From positions 1 to 32,005 of the forward strand of contig JAFMDE010000009.1 in NCBI GenBank assembly GCA_017857425.1: 32,005 nt of DNA. Reading direction: 5' to 3'. Positions 1-13,789 of this stretch are shown here, one piece after another. The position numbers were made by a program, and so were the translations under genes. A model generated the notes under the pieces. It saw nothing but the letters and a program-made list of their open reading frames with translations. It was not told the DNA's origin and searched no databases. Positions within the stretch are counted from its first letter, which is position 1, and every line of letters begins with the position of its first letter. Source of the stretch: Akkermansiaceae bacterium (GTDB lineage: Bacteria > Verrucomicrobiota > Verrucomicrobiia > Verrucomicrobiales > Akkermansiaceae).

Positions 1-579
1 GAGGAGCTTTATCCCGAGACTCCCATCCCGCTTGATCATAGCGATGCCTACACACTGCTTATCGCGGTGCTGCTGTCTGCTCAATGCACCGATATCAGGG
101 TCAATCAGGTAACCCCAGCCCTCTTTAAACTGGCCGATAATCCTGCGGATATGGCGAAGGTGCCGGTGGAGGAGATTAAGGCTATTATTCGTCCCTGTGG
201 GCTTTCCCCGAGGAAGTCGAAGGCGATCTCAGTGCTTTCTCAGATGCTAATGGATCAACACGGGGGTCAAGTGCCTGAGGATTTTGAAGCCTTGGAGGCA
301 CTGCCCGGGGTCGGCCATAAAACCGCTTCTGTAGTGATGGCACAGGCTTTCGGAGTGCCGGCTTTTCCGGTAGATACGCATATTCACCGATTGGCGAAGC
401 GCTGGCGGCTGGCTCCCGGAAAAAACGTGGTTCAGACGGAACGATACCTGAAACGACTTTTCCCCAAGGACAAGTGGAACAAGCTGCATCTGCAGATCAT
501 TTTCTACGGCAGGGAATACTGCAGTGCCCGTGGCTGTGACGGCAAGACTTGTGAGATTTGCGTCACATTAAACGGGTAA
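1..579 (+). CDS. nth: Endonuclease III (5' end truncated by window start)
   Basis: Frame open from base 1 (EELYPETPIPLDHSDAYTLLIAVLLSAQCTD...); HhH motif LPGVGHKTASVV and VDTHIHRLAKR; C-terminal Fe-S cysteines CSARGCDGKTCEIC. Confidence 0.95.
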   Translation, partial: EELYPETPIPLDHSDAYTLLIAVLLSAQCTDIRVNQVTPALFKLADNPADMAKVPVEEIKAIIRPCGLSPRKSKAISVLSQMLMDQHGGQVPEDFEALEALPGVGHKTASVVMAQAFGVPAFPVDTHIHRLAKRWRLAPGKNVVQTERYLKRLFPKDKWNKLHLQIIFYGREYCSARGCDGKTCEICVTLNG

Positions 580-644: not shown

Positions 645-1100
645 TTATTTGGCCGTGTAAACCTTGGTGAAGGCCGCGATGGCATCGTGCAGACCTTGAG
701 CATTTGCTGGATCGGTGGTCTGCTTGCATTTCATAGCGTGAACAATGATCTGATGGATCAGGCTGAGCTTATTGAGGTAGGCGTCCTTGTTGCTCTCAGA
801 TTGGGCAAGTTTGACTCGCTGAGCTAAGAAATACTGAGTCATGGTATCTTGAATCTTGGTAGCGTGCTCTTCCTTGTTGCTGACCCAGCGTGAGATTTGG
901 TTAGCGTTTTTACCCGCGTCTGTAGAAAGCTCGTTAATCTGGACCATGGCCTTAGCGATCGTCTGCTGATGGGTATTGAGATCAATGAGGACGGTATCGT
1001 CTGAGTAGATGCCGCAGGGCACCTGGCAGTGGGCATGCAGGCTGGATGTGCTTGCGAAGGAGAAGAGGGCAACGATGGCGAGGAGTAGGCAGGATTTCAT
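645..1100 (-). CDS. Nickel superoxide dismutase-like (SodN family) secreted protein
   Basis: Signal peptide MKSCLLLAIVALFSFASTSSLHA followed immediately by HCQVPCGIY, matching the NiSOD nickel hook HCxxPCGxY; similar size to NiSOD; downstream KEEHA...TQYF segment alignable to the NiSOD helical region. Confidence 0.8.
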   Translation of the reverse strand: MKSCLLLAIVALFSFASTSSLHAHCQVPCGIYSDDTVLIDLNTHQQTIAKAMVQINELSTDAGKNANQISRWVSNKEEHATKIQDTMTQYFLAQRVKLAQSESNKDAYLNKLSLIHQIIVHAMKCKQTTDPANAQGLHDAIAAFTKVYTAK

Positions 1101-1145: not shown

Positions 1146-2498
1146 TTAGAGGGATTGTTTCCAGCGAGCTACCTCGGCACGAACGTTGTCAATACTGGGT
1201 GCTCCAGGGTTGGTGCGGGCGGCGAGTGCGGTCTGGAGGTCAAAGACGTCTTTGGCATCGGCGCCGTAGTGTTCTGAGACTTGGGAGAGGTCTAGCTGGT
1301 CGAGAGGGGTCTTGGTCTGCACGCTGAGGGCAACCGCTTGGCCTACCAGCTCATGAGCATCGCGGAAGGGCACGCCATTTTTCACCAAGTAGTCAGCGAG
1401 GTCGGTGGCCAAGAGCAGCGGGTCAGAGGCGGCGGCTTCGCAGGTGTCTAGGTTGATGGCCATGTCGGCAATCATCTCGGCATTGACCTTGAGGGCGAGG
1501 CTGAGGGTGTCGATGGAGTCAAACAGAGGTTCCTTGTCTTCTTGTAGGTCGCGGTTGTAGGTGAGGGGAAGTCCTTTGGCTGCGGTGAGTAAGGCGACGA
1601 GGTTGCCGTAGAGCCGGCCGGTTTTACCCCGGGTGAGTTCACAGACGTCTGGGTTTTTTTTCTGAGGCATCAGCGACGACCCGGTGGTGTGCGCGTCAGA
1701 CAGGGTGGCGAAACCAAACTCAGAGCTGCACCAGAGGATGAGGTCTTCGGAGAGACGGGAGAGGTGGGTGCCGACCAGGGCCATGTCGAAGAGGAACTCG
1801 GCGATGTAGTCACGATCGGAAATAGCATCCATCGAGTTGGTGGTGACGCGGTCGAAGCCGAGCTCATCGGAAATTTGTTGGCGATCAAGATTGATCGTTG
1901 ATCCCGCGAGTGCGCCGGATCCCAGTGGGCAGGCGTTGATGCGTTTGCGGCAGTCGGCAAGGCGTGACTTGTCCCGGTCGAGCATCTCAACATAGGCGAG
2001 AAGGTGGTGACCTACGGTGACCGGCTGGCCGCGCTGAAGGTGGGTGTAACCGGGGATAAGGGCAGCCGCGTATTGCTCTGCTTGCTTCAGTAGAGATTGC
2101 TGTAGCCCGGTGATGAGAACGGTGATGTTGTCAATTTCTTCCCGGCAGTAGAGGCGGGTATCGGTGGCGACCTGGTCGTTACGTGAACGAGCAGTGTGGA
2201 GTTTGGCTCCTGGAGCACCGATGCGCTCGGTGAGTGCTGACTCGATGTTCATGTGGATGTCCTCGAGCTCAATGGAGAAATTAAACTCGCCAGCCTCTAT
2301 TTCTTTTTCAATTTCACGCAGACCCTTTTCGATGGCGGCAAACTCGTCTGAGCTGAGCAGCTTGGCACTCACTTGTGCACGTGCGTGAGCGATGGATCCT
2401 GCAATGTCGTGTTTATACAGGCGCCAATCATAGGAGATGGATTCTCCATATTGTTGCACGAGATCAGCAGTAGCTTTGGCGAAACGTCCTTTCCACAT
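1146..2498 (-). CDS. argH: Argininosuccinate lyase
   Basis: MWKGRF start, HTARSRNDQVATDTRL, GSSLMPQKKNPDVCELTRGKTGR signature. Confidence 0.97.
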   Translation of the reverse strand: MWKGRFAKATADLVQQYGESISYDWRLYKHDIAGSIAHARAQVSAKLLSSDEFAAIEKGLREIEKEIEAGEFNFSIELEDIHMNIESALTERIGAPGAKLHTARSRNDQVATDTRLYCREEIDNITVLITGLQQSLLKQAEQYAAALIPGYTHLQRGQPVTVGHHLLAYVEMLDRDKSRLADCRKRINACPLGSGALAGSTINLDRQQISDELGFDRVTTNSMDAISDRDYIAEFLFDMALVGTHLSRLSEDLILWCSSEFGFATLSDAHTTGSSLMPQKKNPDVCELTRGKTGRLYGNLVALLTAAKGLPLTYNRDLQEDKEPLFDSIDTLSLALKVNAEMIADMAINLDTCEAAASDPLLLATDLADYLVKNGVPFRDAHELVGQAVALSVQTKTPLDQLDLSQVSEHYGADAKDVFDLQTALAARTNPGAPSIDNVRAEVARWKQSL

Positions 2499-2741: not shown

Positions 2742-5700
2742 CTACCGATGCGGATGTTCCTTGAGCAGTTCCTCGGGGCTGTAAAAGCCCTCTTTGTCTT
2801 TAGTGGCGGCACGCACTTTGGCTACCTCCTCAGGGGTTACGACGGAGGATTCGTTGTCAAAGGTATTTCGCACGAAGGTTAATACAGCTGCGGTTTCTTT
2901 GTCGTCGAGTATATCTTTAAACGCTGTCATTGGAACGTGACCTGGATATTGTTTGCCCTTCACGGTGATTGGGCCATGGAGCCCATGCAGGGTGAGTTTA
3001 ATCAAGCGCTCTTTGCTGCCGGTGACCCATTTACTTTTATCGAGCGGAGGGAAACCTGAGTGGGGCAGCCCTTTGCCATCCTGTTGGTGGCATGTGGCGC
3101 AGTGGCCTTCTCGATTATATATTTCAGCACCTTGTCCGAAAATCCTTTTATCATCTCCTTTGAGCTCTGTTTTGAGCAGGAAATAAGGCTCGTCATGGAG
3201 TGTTTTGTTTTGAAGTTTGGCTTTTGCATAGCGCAGTGAGCCTTTCATCAAGCTTTCGAGTGGTTTTTTCTCGGCGTTCTCTAAGATCGGCAGGCCTACT
3301 TCTTGCGGTAGCCATGAGGCCGCAGTGATGGCCTCGAGCCGGACCCTGCCGTGTTCGTCATTGGCGGCCTCCATGAGCAATGATGCGTAGTCATCGAGGT
3401 GTTCAGTGTTGAAGCGTAGAACTCTGACTGCGGCAGACCGGATCCGGTGGTCAGGTGATTTGAGCAGTGTTCGGAGTAATTCTGCGTCAACCTGGTTAAG
3501 TCCCCAGCTAACCCAGAGAGCTTCAAGCTTGTGGTGGTCATTTGTTTGCTTCGCAACCCACTTTTTGAGCTCCGGAAGAACCTCGTCCGCGCTGCGGCCG
3601 CGCAGTTCGCGACGGGTCCGGTAACGGGTGCGATCTTCGGGGAGTTTCAGGTTTTCGAGTAATTCGGCAATACTTGCTCCGTGAACCTTGGCTGGTTTTA
3701 CCAGAGGCCGATCGGGGTAGGTGATGCGATAAATACGACCATGAACGTGATCACGGTTTGGGTCACGCTGGTTGTGCTGCGCGTGTCCAATGAGCGCGTT
3801 GTGCCAGTCCGCCACATAGAGAGATCCGTCTGGAGCAAACTCCAAGTCAACCGGGCGGAAATTGGTGTCTGCTGAGCGGAACAGGTCTTGGCGCCACTTG
3901 GCCTTGAAGCCGGCGCCGTCCTCGCTGATTTGGTGCTGCTTGGCGCCAAGAAACCCGATATTGTTGCATATAAGGAGGTCTCCTTGGACCTCATCGGGGA
4001 AATGACGGCTTGATATAAACTCAAGCCCTGAAGTGGGGCGCACCTTGTGATTCTGTAAGATCGTGCTGGCATACATACTCACCCCGTAAGTAGACTTCAC
4101 TGTGCCTGGCATCATCCATGAGGTAGCAGGCCCAGAGGTATGCAGGAAAAAATCCTGGCCGAAACGATCATAGGCGCTTCCCCATGGGTTGGGGATATGC
4201 AGCTGGGCATAACGAATGAGCTTTTTGCGTTGAGGTGAGTAGCGGAAGAATCCGCCATTGGTTCCCCGGACCGGCCCATAGGCAGTCTCAATATTGGAAT
4301 GGAGGAAGATGCCCTCGCTGAGTAAAATAGCTCCCGATGGGTCAGCGCAGAAAGCTCCAATGGCGTGGTGGGTATCGTAATCATCAAATCCACTCAATAC
4401 AACTTCCCTGACGTCATATTGGTCGTCCCCGTCGGTGTCCTTGAGCAGTACTAAGTGGCCAGACTGGGCGACGTAGACGCCCTCGGAAGTGATCTCAAAG
4501 CCCATCGGGATATGCAGGTCGCCAGCGAAGGTGGTTTGCTTGTCGGCTTTGCCATCGTTGTCGGTGTCTTCGAGGATGATGAGCTTGTCGCTTGGCTTGG
4601 GGTCACCAATGCGGTAGTGCGGGTAGCTGGGCATGGTGGCAACCCAGAGACGTCCTTTGTTGTCGAATGCTACTTGCACCGGGTTGGCAAGATCGGTGAA
4701 TTCCTTCTCGGAGGCGAAGAGCTCCATCTGGTATCCATTGGCAGTGGTGATTTTGGTCTGCGAGGATGGGCCTGACTGATATTCGAGTTTACCGTTCTTG
4801 CCACTGGGCTTGAAGTTGGTTTTAACGGGGGAGAGTTGGAAGGTCTTGGCATCTTCAGCAGCGAGATCCATTTTTTTGCCTTGGAGTGCTAGCCAGATGG
4901 CTTGGTCACGCAGGGCGGTCATCTCACGAGTCTTCTTATACTCATCTCGGTAGTTCTGTGGTGGGGCGTTTTTGCCACCTCCCCGACGTCCGTAGATTTG
5001 CACGCCATTGGGCATTTTGTAATCGTTGAGCCAGCACCAGTTTTTCTCGTTCACTGCGGCGCGGACTGTGCCCCGGCGCTCTGGATGTTGGATCGCTGAC
5101 TTGCCGTAGATACCATCAGCAAGCTGGGGGGCGAGCCACTGGTAGCCTTTGTCGTTGAGCAGGGCGCCGTCCCGGGTGAAGGAATCTTTGTCGGCGTTGA
5201 ATGCCGCCTTTGAGGGAGTGAAGACATCGATGAACACTACCCCGTGCTCGGCACAGACTTCCTTCATCGCCTCGGTATATAGGGCGAGGTTGGCGTTGGT
5301 GATTGTAGCGTCAGGGGCGTCGTAAATGTGGGAAACATCTTCAAATGCGGTGGGGGAGACGATGGCTAGCTTGGGGGCGGGCTTGCCATTGTATTGTTGT
5401 GCCAAGGTGTGCTTGATGAATCCACCAAGTTCGCCCTTAAAGTTCTCCACGCCTGCAGGACCATTAAAAGAGGAGTTGAAACCAAAGAATGCAATGATGG
5501 TATCTGCCTTGAGGTGGCCCAGCCATTGGTCTGGTGTCATATAGATGCCGCTACTGCCGCTTTTTTTTGCGAGTTCGGTCTGAAATTTTTCCGCTCCGGG
5601 GAATGCCCACGGTGAATTGCGACCGGGGTGGGGACGAAATCCCGGGGTGTTGCCTTCATCACACATGTTGCGGATGATGAGCTTCTTGTCAGGATTGCGG

Positions 5701-5900
5701 AGCTGAAGCTCGGTTTCAAAATAACCAAAGTGACTCATGCGTGAGCCTAGGCCACTGCCAAGTAATACGATGCGCTCGTCCGTGTCGGCACTCAGGGGCT
5801 TTGCCCCGGCTTGGAAGGCTGGTAATAGGGTCAGTGAGAAGAAAATGCTGAGCAGAAAAGCGTATTTTCTCTGTTGAGGCATAAATGGGCTAAAATACAT
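2742..5900 (-). CDS. PVC-type multidomain secreted protein: SGNH/GDSL-like N-terminus, membrane-bound dehydrogenase-like beta-propeller region, HEAT-like repeats, C-terminal cytochrome c CxxCH domain
   Basis: Signal peptide after MYFSPFMPQQRKYAFLLSIFFSLTLLPAFQAGA; LLGSGLGSRM/FFGFNSSF (SGNH-like); CATCH haem motif at 3087..3101. Start revised from 6116 because the longer ORF overlaps the fur-like gene; ATG at 5900 or 5882. Confidence 0.8.
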   Translation of the reverse strand: MYFSPFMPQQRKYAFLLSIFFSLTLLPAFQAGAKPLSADTDERIVLLGSGLGSRMSHFGYFETELQLRNPDKKLIIRNMCDEGNTPGFRPHPGRNSPWAFPGAEKFQTELAKKSGSSGIYMTPDQWLGHLKADTIIAFFGFNSSFNGPAGVENFKGELGGFIKHTLAQQYNGKPAPKLAIVSPTAFEDVSHIYDAPDATITNANLALYTEAMKEVCAEHGVVFIDVFTPSKAAFNADKDSFTRDGALLNDKGYQWLAPQLADGIYGKSAIQHPERRGTVRAAVNEKNWCWLNDYKMPNGVQIYGRRGGGKNAPPQNYRDEYKKTREMTALRDQAIWLALQGKKMDLAAEDAKTFQLSPVKTNFKPSGKNGKLEYQSGPSSQTKITTANGYQMELFASEKEFTDLANPVQVAFDNKGRLWVATMPSYPHYRIGDPKPSDKLIILEDTDNDGKADKQTTFAGDLHIPMGFEITSEGVYVAQSGHLVLLKDTDGDDQYDVREVVLSGFDDYDTHHAIGAFCADPSGAILLSEGIFLHSNIETAYGPVRGTNGGFFRYSPQRKKLIRYAQLHIPNPWGSAYDRFGQDFFLHTSGPATSWMMPGTVKSTYGVSMYASTILQNHKVRPTSGLEFISSRHFPDEVQGDLLICNNIGFLGAKQHQISEDGAGFKAKWRQDLFRSADTNFRPVDLEFAPDGSLYVADWHNALIGHAQHNQRDPNRDHVHGRIYRITYPDRPLVKPAKVHGASIAELLENLKLPEDRTRYRTRRELRGRSADEVLPELKKWVAKQTNDHHKLEALWVSWGLNQVDAELLRTLLKSPDHRIRSAAVRVLRFNTEHLDDYASLLMEAANDEHGRVRLEAITAASWLPQEVGLPILENAEKKPLESLMKGSLRYAKAKLQNKTLHDEPYFLLKTELKGDDKRIFGQGAEIYNREGHCATCHQQDGKGLPHSGFPPLDKSKWVTGSKERLIKLTLHGLHGPITVKGKQYPGHVPMTAFKDILDDKETAAVLTFVRNTFDNESSVVTPEEVAKVRAATKDKEGFYSPEELLKEHPHR

Positions 5901-5967
5901 TATGTCTCCAACGTTCACACACGAACAGAACTTGCAAAAATTCTCAGATACTTTGGATGATGTTCGG

Positions 5968-6474
5968 TTAACGCCTTTTGGGAAGGCGTTTGCCTTGAAT
6001 GCGTGCCTCAATGAGATTCTCACATCTGCCGTGCAGCCTGAGTTTCTCACAGCATGCCTCAATCTTGAGGGTTTGTCTCTCAGGGCGGAACCCCAGACGC
6101 CTGGCTGCGCAGTCATTCATGAGCTGGATGTGTGCGTCCTCAAATTCGATGACTTTACCGCAGTCAATGCATACAAGGTGATTGTGGGCGGGGCTTTCGA
6201 CAAAATTGGGGTCATAGGTTTTTTGATCATCTCCAAGGTCAATTTCATGAAGTAGGCCAGCCTCTACCAGGAGCGAAATAGTACGGTAGACAGTAGCTCG
6301 TGAAGATTGAGCATCTAGAGACTTGGTTTTGCGAATACGCTCCCACAGATCATCGGCAGTAAAATGATCATCGGAGGAGAAGATGGCTTCTACAATGGCA
6401 TTGCGCTGAGGGGTGTTGCGCAGCCCCTTGCTTTGTATGAATTGTTGCAAGCGCTTCTCGATACTAGGATCCAT
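5968..6474 (-). CDS. Fur family transcriptional regulator
   Basis: Winged helix RATVYRTISLLVEAGLL, metal-site region HNHLVCIDCGKVIEFED. Confidence 0.92.
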   Translation of the reverse strand: MDPSIEKRLQQFIQSKGLRNTPQRNAIVEAIFSSDDHFTADDLWERIRKTKSLDAQSSRATVYRTISLLVEAGLLHEIDLGDDQKTYDPNFVESPAHNHLVCIDCGKVIEFEDAHIQLMNDCAARRLGFRPERQTLKIEACCEKLRLHGRCENLIEARIQGKRLPKRR

Positions 6475-13114: not shown

Positions 13115-13789
13115 ATGAAAGTTTTTTTAGCCACGGCGGCCTTATTTGTATGCTTATTTAGCGTGCTTTCTGCTGATATGAAAATTCCTCGTTCGATTCA
13201 TGGAATGGACGAGCTGGATGAGGCTATCGTTAAAGCTACCAAGAAAGAAAAGCCGCTCGTCTTTGTTTATACTGATCCAGGCACGAGCTGAGGCCCATGC
13301 GTGGCCGCCAGTTTGGAGGCCTTTAAATCATTTAAAACCGTCGGTATTGTTGTCTTTGCTGATAGTAAAAAAGACAAGGGGTCCTTGCCTAAAGGGATTA
13401 TGGATGTGCGCGCAAAAGGTGGTAATACCATCCCAATGGTTTTCATCACTACCTCAGACGGCGAAAAGGGGATCGATGCTGTGCCTTACTCTGATCTGAA
13501 GGCTGATATGAGAAAGGCTGTTCGAGAGCTTCGTAAGTCCCTTGAAGATGTTGACGTGATTGGGGGTGTTGATTCCGTGGATGAAGCGGCTGCCAGTAAA
13601 GAGGAAGAAAAAGAAAAGGCGACTGAATTTGAGCAATGGGAAAATTCTGCGGGCAAAAAAATCAAGGCTGCGGTTCAGAAGGTTGAGGCTGATAGAGTTC
13701 TCTTCCTTTTGCCGAATGGGAAAACTTTGTGGTATGATATCTCGAAATTATCTGAATCAAGTCAATCCAAGTTGAAGGGTGCTGAGTAG
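13115..13789 (+). CDS. Putative thioredoxin-like selenoprotein with UGPC redox motif and C-terminal SHD1-like domain (in-frame TGA at 13289..13291 read as selenocysteine)
   Basis: ATG 13115 (MKVFLATAALFVCLFSVLSA signal peptide); same frame continues through a single TGA to TAG at 13789: ...KPLVFVYTDPGTS-U-GPCVAASLEAF...NTIPMVFITT...FEQWENSAGKKIKAAVQKVEADRVLFLLPNGKTLWYDISKLSESSQSKL. TGA is at the first Cys position of CGPC (residue 59; resolving Cys at 62). Confidence 0.83.
13303..13321 (+). promoter_or_regulatory. Candidate bacterial SECIS hairpin downstream of the UGA codon
   Basis: GGCC-G-CC-[AGUUU]-GG-A-GGCC: 4 bp, G.A mismatch, 2 bp, 5-nt loop with GU; stem begins 11 nt after the UGA. 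Confidence 0.65.

Follow-up and report, generated by a model that had tools for sequence, protein, structure and literature searches.

Near one end of a 32,005-nucleotide stretch of Akkermansiaceae DNA (hereafter the window) lies the gene of a NiSOD-type protein whose export is very probable, judging from its sequence and those of its relatives. The usual picture of NiSOD is that of a cytoplasmic enzyme with a dedicated protease. For the window protein we regard another arrangement as probable, namely an extracytoplasmic NiSOD whose His1 is freed by signal peptidase I and whose nickel is loaded outside the cytoplasm. The precursor would exit the cytoplasm via Sec, and signal peptidase I would cut after Ala23 to give a free alpha-amino group and the imidazole of His1, which with Cys2 and Cys6 would form the nickel hook. 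The apo-hook would then take up nickel outside the cytoplasm (that is, in the periplasm of this Gram-negative-type cell), and the four-helix protein would remove superoxide in the periplasm, with a leaderless Fe/Mn-SOD serving the cytoplasm. If this is true, a nickel-thiolate site assembles outside the cytoplasm without a known dedicated helper, and many bacteria, some of them without Cu/Zn-SOD, guard their envelope from superoxide by nickel. The gene and its parts are as follows.

645–1100, minus strand: gene of a predicted exported-type NiSOD (Sod_Ni); 151-aa precursor with a PF09055 match
1032–1100, minus strand: predicted Sec-type signal peptide, residues 1–23 (MKSCLLLAIVALFSFASTSSLHA); from the sequence, with the −3/−1 rule and the apolar run kept in relatives
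1005–1031, minus strand: putative nickel hook HCQVPCGIY, mature residues 1–9; from conservation and the NiSOD hook of 1q0d/1t6u
648–1031, minus strand: predicted mature protein, 128 aa, with a four-helix NiSOD fold; from AlphaFold2 and Foldseek
864–866, minus strand: codon of the invariant His56 (mature numbering); from the alignment column, opposite Streptomyces Arg47 in hhalign

The NiSOD-like assignment made in the original prediction was upheld. Residues 21–150 of the ORF at 645–1100 matched Pfam Sod_Ni (PF09055) with 108.5 bits (E 4e-31; gathering cutoff 25 bits), and at the level of family membership the protein is of the NiSOD type. The host, whose 2.2-Mb genome is of the Akkermansiaceae type within Verrucomicrobiota and 92.6% complete, has no other Sod_Ni gene. 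The nearest named relative of the window protein among the matches listed belongs to Akkermansiaceae bacterium UBA985 (97% identical). The NiSOD equivalog model TIGR02753, which matched all 77 aligned relatives, gave 47.6 bits for the precursor and 39.8 bits for the mature window protein, below its cutoff of 90 bits, whereas SodX-type examples score about 150 bits. The PDB holds no close sequence relative; the best sequence matches were the solved Streptomyces NiSODs, and these were weak (E 0.03; profile E 0.005). The sub-cutoff TIGR02753 score and this weak similarity, together with the apparent change of Arg47 to His, are among the points that speak against the NiSOD reading.

Leader, cleavage boundary and maturation

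The precursor consists of the 23-residue leader MKSCLLLAIVALFSFASTSSLHA followed directly by HCQVPCGIYSDD. An MK n-region, the apolar core CLLLAIVALFSFA and an LHA|H boundary give the leader the features of a Sec and signal peptidase I substrate, and it ends exactly where the mature start HCQVPCGIY had been predicted. Lipoprotein export through signal peptidase II was considered and rejected, as residue +1 is His and Cys stands only at +2, which leaves no lipobox. Among 137 distinct relatives, the −3/−1 rule held at the His boundary in 135 (99%), compared with 17–40% at boundaries 1–14 residues upstream; position −1 was Ala in 118, Ser in 10 and Gly in 7, and the median apolar run in the leaders was 15 residues. 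Since the leader-to-His boundary is conserved to this extent, it is not a matter of chance, and on sequence grounds its conservation is direct evidence of selection for cleavage exactly before His1. At the sequence level there is thereby good support both for export and for signal peptidase exposing His1, and in vivo the protein presumably passes through Sec and is cut exactly at His1. The suggestion that a signal peptidase could free His1 on export thus applies to the whole subfamily, in which the leader boundary falls at His1.

Leu at −3 with His at −2 is not the classic AXA, and SFA|S at residues 15–18 of the window protein is possibly cleavable. Signal peptidase may accordingly cut elsewhere, for example nearer the core, which would leave a short tail before His1 and no five-coordinate site. 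However, the boundary before His1 is the sole one kept across relatives (99% versus at most 40% elsewhere), and we give such a displaced cut hardly any chance. The host has one ORF for signal peptidase I (G000:C176:7400-8395, 430 aa), with Peptidase_S26 in two blocks and a large insertion between them.

To see how far the arrangement extends, the leader can be followed through the relatives. Sod_Ni occurred in 62 of the 388 Verrucomicrobiota genomes of a phylum survey, and all 60 phylum members with an intact N-terminus had a hydrophobic leader running straight into HC[QE]xPC or a motif close to it. GTDB genomes, scanned with two patterns so that some genes are possibly counted twice, gave at least 574 matching stretches. 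The best 80 of these, picked by similarity and named, came from about 15 phyla, among them, by record title, Bacteroidota, Calditrichota, Planctomycetota, Zixibacteria, Hydrogenedentota, Thermodesulfobacteriota, Latescibacterota, Gemmatimonadota, Marinimicrobia, Omnitrophota, Lentisphaerota, WOR-3, KSB1 and Aminicenantes, and every one of the 80 had a leader before the hook. On these sequences, a leader before the hook is standard throughout a large subfamily of exported NiSODs and not peculiar to the window genome. In a tree of 108 mature sequences, of which only three were SodX-type, the exported type was split from those three by a long branch (support 99/99). The window gene fell in a four-row group with Akkermansiaceae (100/95), nested within 33 rows that are essentially Verrucomicrobiota (99/95). 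Its relatives in the tree are from Akkermansiaceae and Rubritalea, so the gene was likely inherited in the ordinary way within its lineage. Horizontal transfer, whether by phage or by plasmid, was considered and rejected, there being no phage match and one plasmid match.

The original prediction had noted that no sodX is adjacent and had proposed a genome-wide look, which also found none: the sodX model had no match in the host genome (92.6% complete). None of the 388 phylum genomes passed the sodX cutoff (63.25 bits). It should be noted that this cutoff alone is insufficient because a diverged sodX may score lower, and the Novosphingobium sodX beside sodN scores just 44 bits. The sub-cutoff matches in the 388 genomes were mostly of the two-block, signal-peptidase kind, as in the E. 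coli and Bacillus controls. Across 39 genomes carrying the exported type, no score with the sodX model exceeded 28.9 bits in the same search that recovers the Novosphingobium sodX at 44, and none of the ORFs near 140 exported-type loci resembled that sodX.

These results also bear on a reading in which the NiSOD stays in the cytoplasm and an unrecognised protease removes the leader as an unusual propeptide. In SodX-type propeptides, too, Ala is the last residue ahead of His (Nonomuraea ...TVSA|HCD, Novosphingobium ...AQA|HCD), and the cyanobacterial NiSODs studied are cytoplasmic (PMC8346466). Nevertheless, the leaders here have a signal-peptide n-region, a long apolar core (the median run of 15 given above, n=137) and a c-region, and neither a sodX nor a shared neighbouring protease was found, so that we consider a propeptide very unlikely. 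The extracytoplasmic enzyme of the original prediction is instead favoured by the leader, by the conservation of its boundary and by the lack of sodX.

SodX itself scores 30.7 bits with the signal peptidase I model and therefore looks like a signal peptidase relative performing, in the cytoplasm, the task that would fall to signal peptidase here. Because of this relationship, maturation on export may be the older route. We lean slightly towards a joint reading in which Sod_Ni has two maturation routes, one with cytoplasmic SodX and the other with signal peptidase on export, metal loading outside the cytoplasm and an altered second shell (His56) suited to that compartment. Judging from the genomes scanned, the export route of this reading is widespread over many phyla.

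Hook, fold and second-shell residues

All the hook residues claimed in the original prediction (His1, Cys2, Pro5, Cys6, Gly7 and Tyr9) are present. In the relatives, His1, Cys2, Pro5 and Cys6 were kept in 137 of 137 and Gly7 in 136, and position 9 was Tyr or Phe. Gln at position 3 was also described correctly, but it is the norm and not an oddity (Gln in 82 and Glu in 55 of the 137). The proposed replacement of Glu17 by Asp17 could not be sustained: in hhalign, Streptomyces Glu17 lies opposite Ile16, Asp17 falls in a gap, and positions 16–17 are variable. Asp17 as a Glu17 substitute is a numbering coincidence, ruled out by the profile alignment and the variability across relatives, and no conserved acid aligns with Streptomyces Glu17.

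The same alignment placed His56 opposite Streptomyces Arg47. Glu17 and Arg47 are the residues that we take to hold His1 in the Streptomyces NiSOD structures (second shell). The Novosphingobium SodX-type NiSOD has neither residue, so the pair does not strictly define the SodX type. His56 is one of the invariant mature positions, which include His1, Cys2, Pro5, Cys6, Gly7, Thr24, Gln45, Arg48, Trp49, Lys53, Tyr67, Gln71, Arg72, His93, Lys103 and Gln104 (this list is not exhaustive).

The mature protein was modelled as a monomer with AlphaFold2 from 77 relatives, which gave four long helices with a pLDDT of 94.8 and a pTM of 0.89. In a Foldseek search of the PDB, the top 16 matches were all NiSOD chains (TM 0.64–0.82; about 0.75 by query length and about 0.8 by target length, rmsd 2.5 Å, about 18% identity), and the matches after them had TM below 0.45. 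The sequence has widely diverged, yet the predicted fold is that of NiSOD. For the window protein we infer nickel as the metal, and likewise the place of its loading, the SOD activity and the oligomeric state. A different route of nickel loading, as originally suggested, is a reasonable inference that goes beyond what a sequence can show. A point against the main reading is that in an oxidising compartment the free thiolates of Cys2 and Cys6 might form a disulphide before nickel arrives. Some exported NiSODs (L059, L007 and L056) carry His-rich C-terminal tails (for example, ...HEKMHKHKAHDHKDHDHSH), which could be metal-holding extensions.

Gene neighbourhood and other genes of the host

Two genes flank the NiSOD gene (sodN) and are given as context.

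1146–2498, minus strand: argH (argininosuccinate lyase), Pfam Lyase_1 and ASL_C2, 45 bp upstream of sodN
67–579, plus strand: nth-like endonuclease III, Pfam HhH-GPD, convergent with sodN; its start is probably before the window

The argH-sodN order was common only to the closest relatives (L073, L074, L075 and L078), and the nth-like order was kept in L073, L075 and partly in L074; being limited to such close relatives, this arrangement says little on function. In some other relatives, sodN is followed by a same-strand gene for peroxide removal. A di-haem cytochrome c peroxidase gene lies 3' of sodN at six related Verrucomicrobiales/Akkermansiaceae loci by direct tblastn, a Redoxin/AhpC-TSA peroxiredoxin gene is next after sodN in two Sedimentisphaerales, and a rubrerythrin gene is next in one Aminicenantes. 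Such neighbours fit an H2O2-making product but are lineage-limited. A larger cluster of 15 loci with a cytochrome c peroxidase neighbour was discarded, as it was inflated by merged reading frames and tblastn left six. The host genome (92.6% complete) lacks CCP_MauG (cytochrome c peroxidase). Apart from these lineage-limited peroxidase genes, no conserved neighbour was found that could be a dedicated protease or nickel transporter, nor was any nickel transporter or chaperone found that is tied to the window sodN. NicO nickel permease was absent from the host genome, which carries little weight as NicO was the sole type of nickel importer looked for.

The neighbours are also relevant to a different function, that of an exported metal-binder with the NiSOD fold and hook and no activity, which would buffer, carry or sense nickel or copper in the periplasm. 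Metal carriers do occur among exported proteins with an N-terminal His after the signal peptide (DUF4198, Ang-1; PMC12537917). The window protein is moreover far from the tested NiSODs and is changed at the second-shell Arg47. On the other hand, 137 relatives retain the hook in full, down to Pro5, Gly7 and Tyr/Phe9, which is more than metal binding by itself should require, the fold is that of NiSOD, peroxidase genes follow in separate lineages, and no link to a metal transporter was found. We therefore consider a mere metal-binder improbable and retain superoxide removal as the proposed role. No Cu/Zn-SOD was found in the host genome (92.6% complete), and its one Fe/Mn-SOD has an N-terminus without an apparent leader; for these two reasons, the window NiSOD would be the extracytoplasmic SOD of the host.

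An Rfam scan of the window gave nothing at the gathering score, and a promoter and terminator scan of the argH-sodN gap gave nothing useful. About 5 kb from sodN, a Fur-family regulator is encoded at 5968–6474 (minus strand, 95.9 bits), which may be of the Fur, Zur, PerR or nickel-sensing Nur type. A 1124-aa ORF at 2742–6116 (minus strand) combines a GDSL-type lipase domain, DUF7133, HEAT repeats and a C-terminal cytochrome c, and by its domains is a multi-domain envelope protein of Planctomycetes/Verrucomicrobia type.

Unrelated to sodN, a candidate selenoprotein was observed in the window. The exported thioredoxin-like ORF at 13115–13789 (plus strand) has an in-frame TGA at 13289–13291, which replaces the first Cys of a CGPC motif (...YTDPGTS[TGA]GPC...). 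TGA stood at the same place (UG[PS]C) in 11 of 12 loci, comprising the window and 11 loci of the same family in other genomes, and L167 had Cys. The host genome also encodes SelB (328 bits; cutoff 242).

Comparison with known systems

The closest known counterpart is the SodX-dependent cytoplasmic NiSOD (Streptomyces SodN, 1Q0D/1T6U; Nonomuraea; Novosphingobium), which shares the HCxxPCxxY hook, the Sod_Ni family and the four helices. In contrast, the window type has a predicted Sec leader in place of the short propeptide, no sodX, and His56 instead of Arg47. A genome survey treats cyanobacterial strains that lack sodX as possibly unable to use NiSOD (PMC8346466). If the proposed maturation on export is true, inferring a nonworking NiSOD from a missing sodX would be wrong for the exported subfamily. 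On a plasmid of Novosphingobium sp. RL4, a HupE/UreJ-like permease (L155:3205-3825) lies directly upstream of the SodX-type sodN and sodX and has what looks like a signal peptide with an N-terminal His right after it (ALA|HPGHEHK), recalling the nickel/copper-binding 'anglerase' permeases of PMC12537917.

Two further systems share single aspects. Algal ubiquitin-NiSOD fusions (PMC6332867) carry a eukaryotic ubiquitin domain and not a secretion signal, and by analogy removal of the fusion partner could be a third way of exposing His1. The window NiSOD is proposed to do the work of bacterial periplasmic Cu/Zn-SOD (SodC, PF00080), clearing superoxide outside the cytoplasm, although the two are unrelated in fold and metal.

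Verrucomicrobial and planctomycete sodN genes are already on record (PMC8346466; PMC3919588), and NCBI annotates an Ilyobacter relative as superoxide dismutase [Ni]. In our literature search, with subscription literature outside it, no description of an exported NiSOD subfamily as such was found beyond a use as search seed in 2025, and no laboratory test of any member. That use concerns the planctomycete Roseiconus lacunae (WP_230780104.1), whose NiSOD resembles the window type in having a signal peptide, then His and the Sod_Ni domain, and differs from it in host, the window member being from Akkermansiaceae; the Rhodopirellula, Aporhodopirellula and Rubripirellula relatives in our set also have a signal peptide before His. 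As far as the accessible part of PMC12537917 (2025) goes, the signal peptide plus His of this NiSOD was the seed for finding metal-binding proteins and retrieved many NiSODs, and the leader served solely in that way, the NiSOD itself being neither made nor assayed. The exported NiSOD is thus a widespread variant of a known enzyme, already used in print as a seed.
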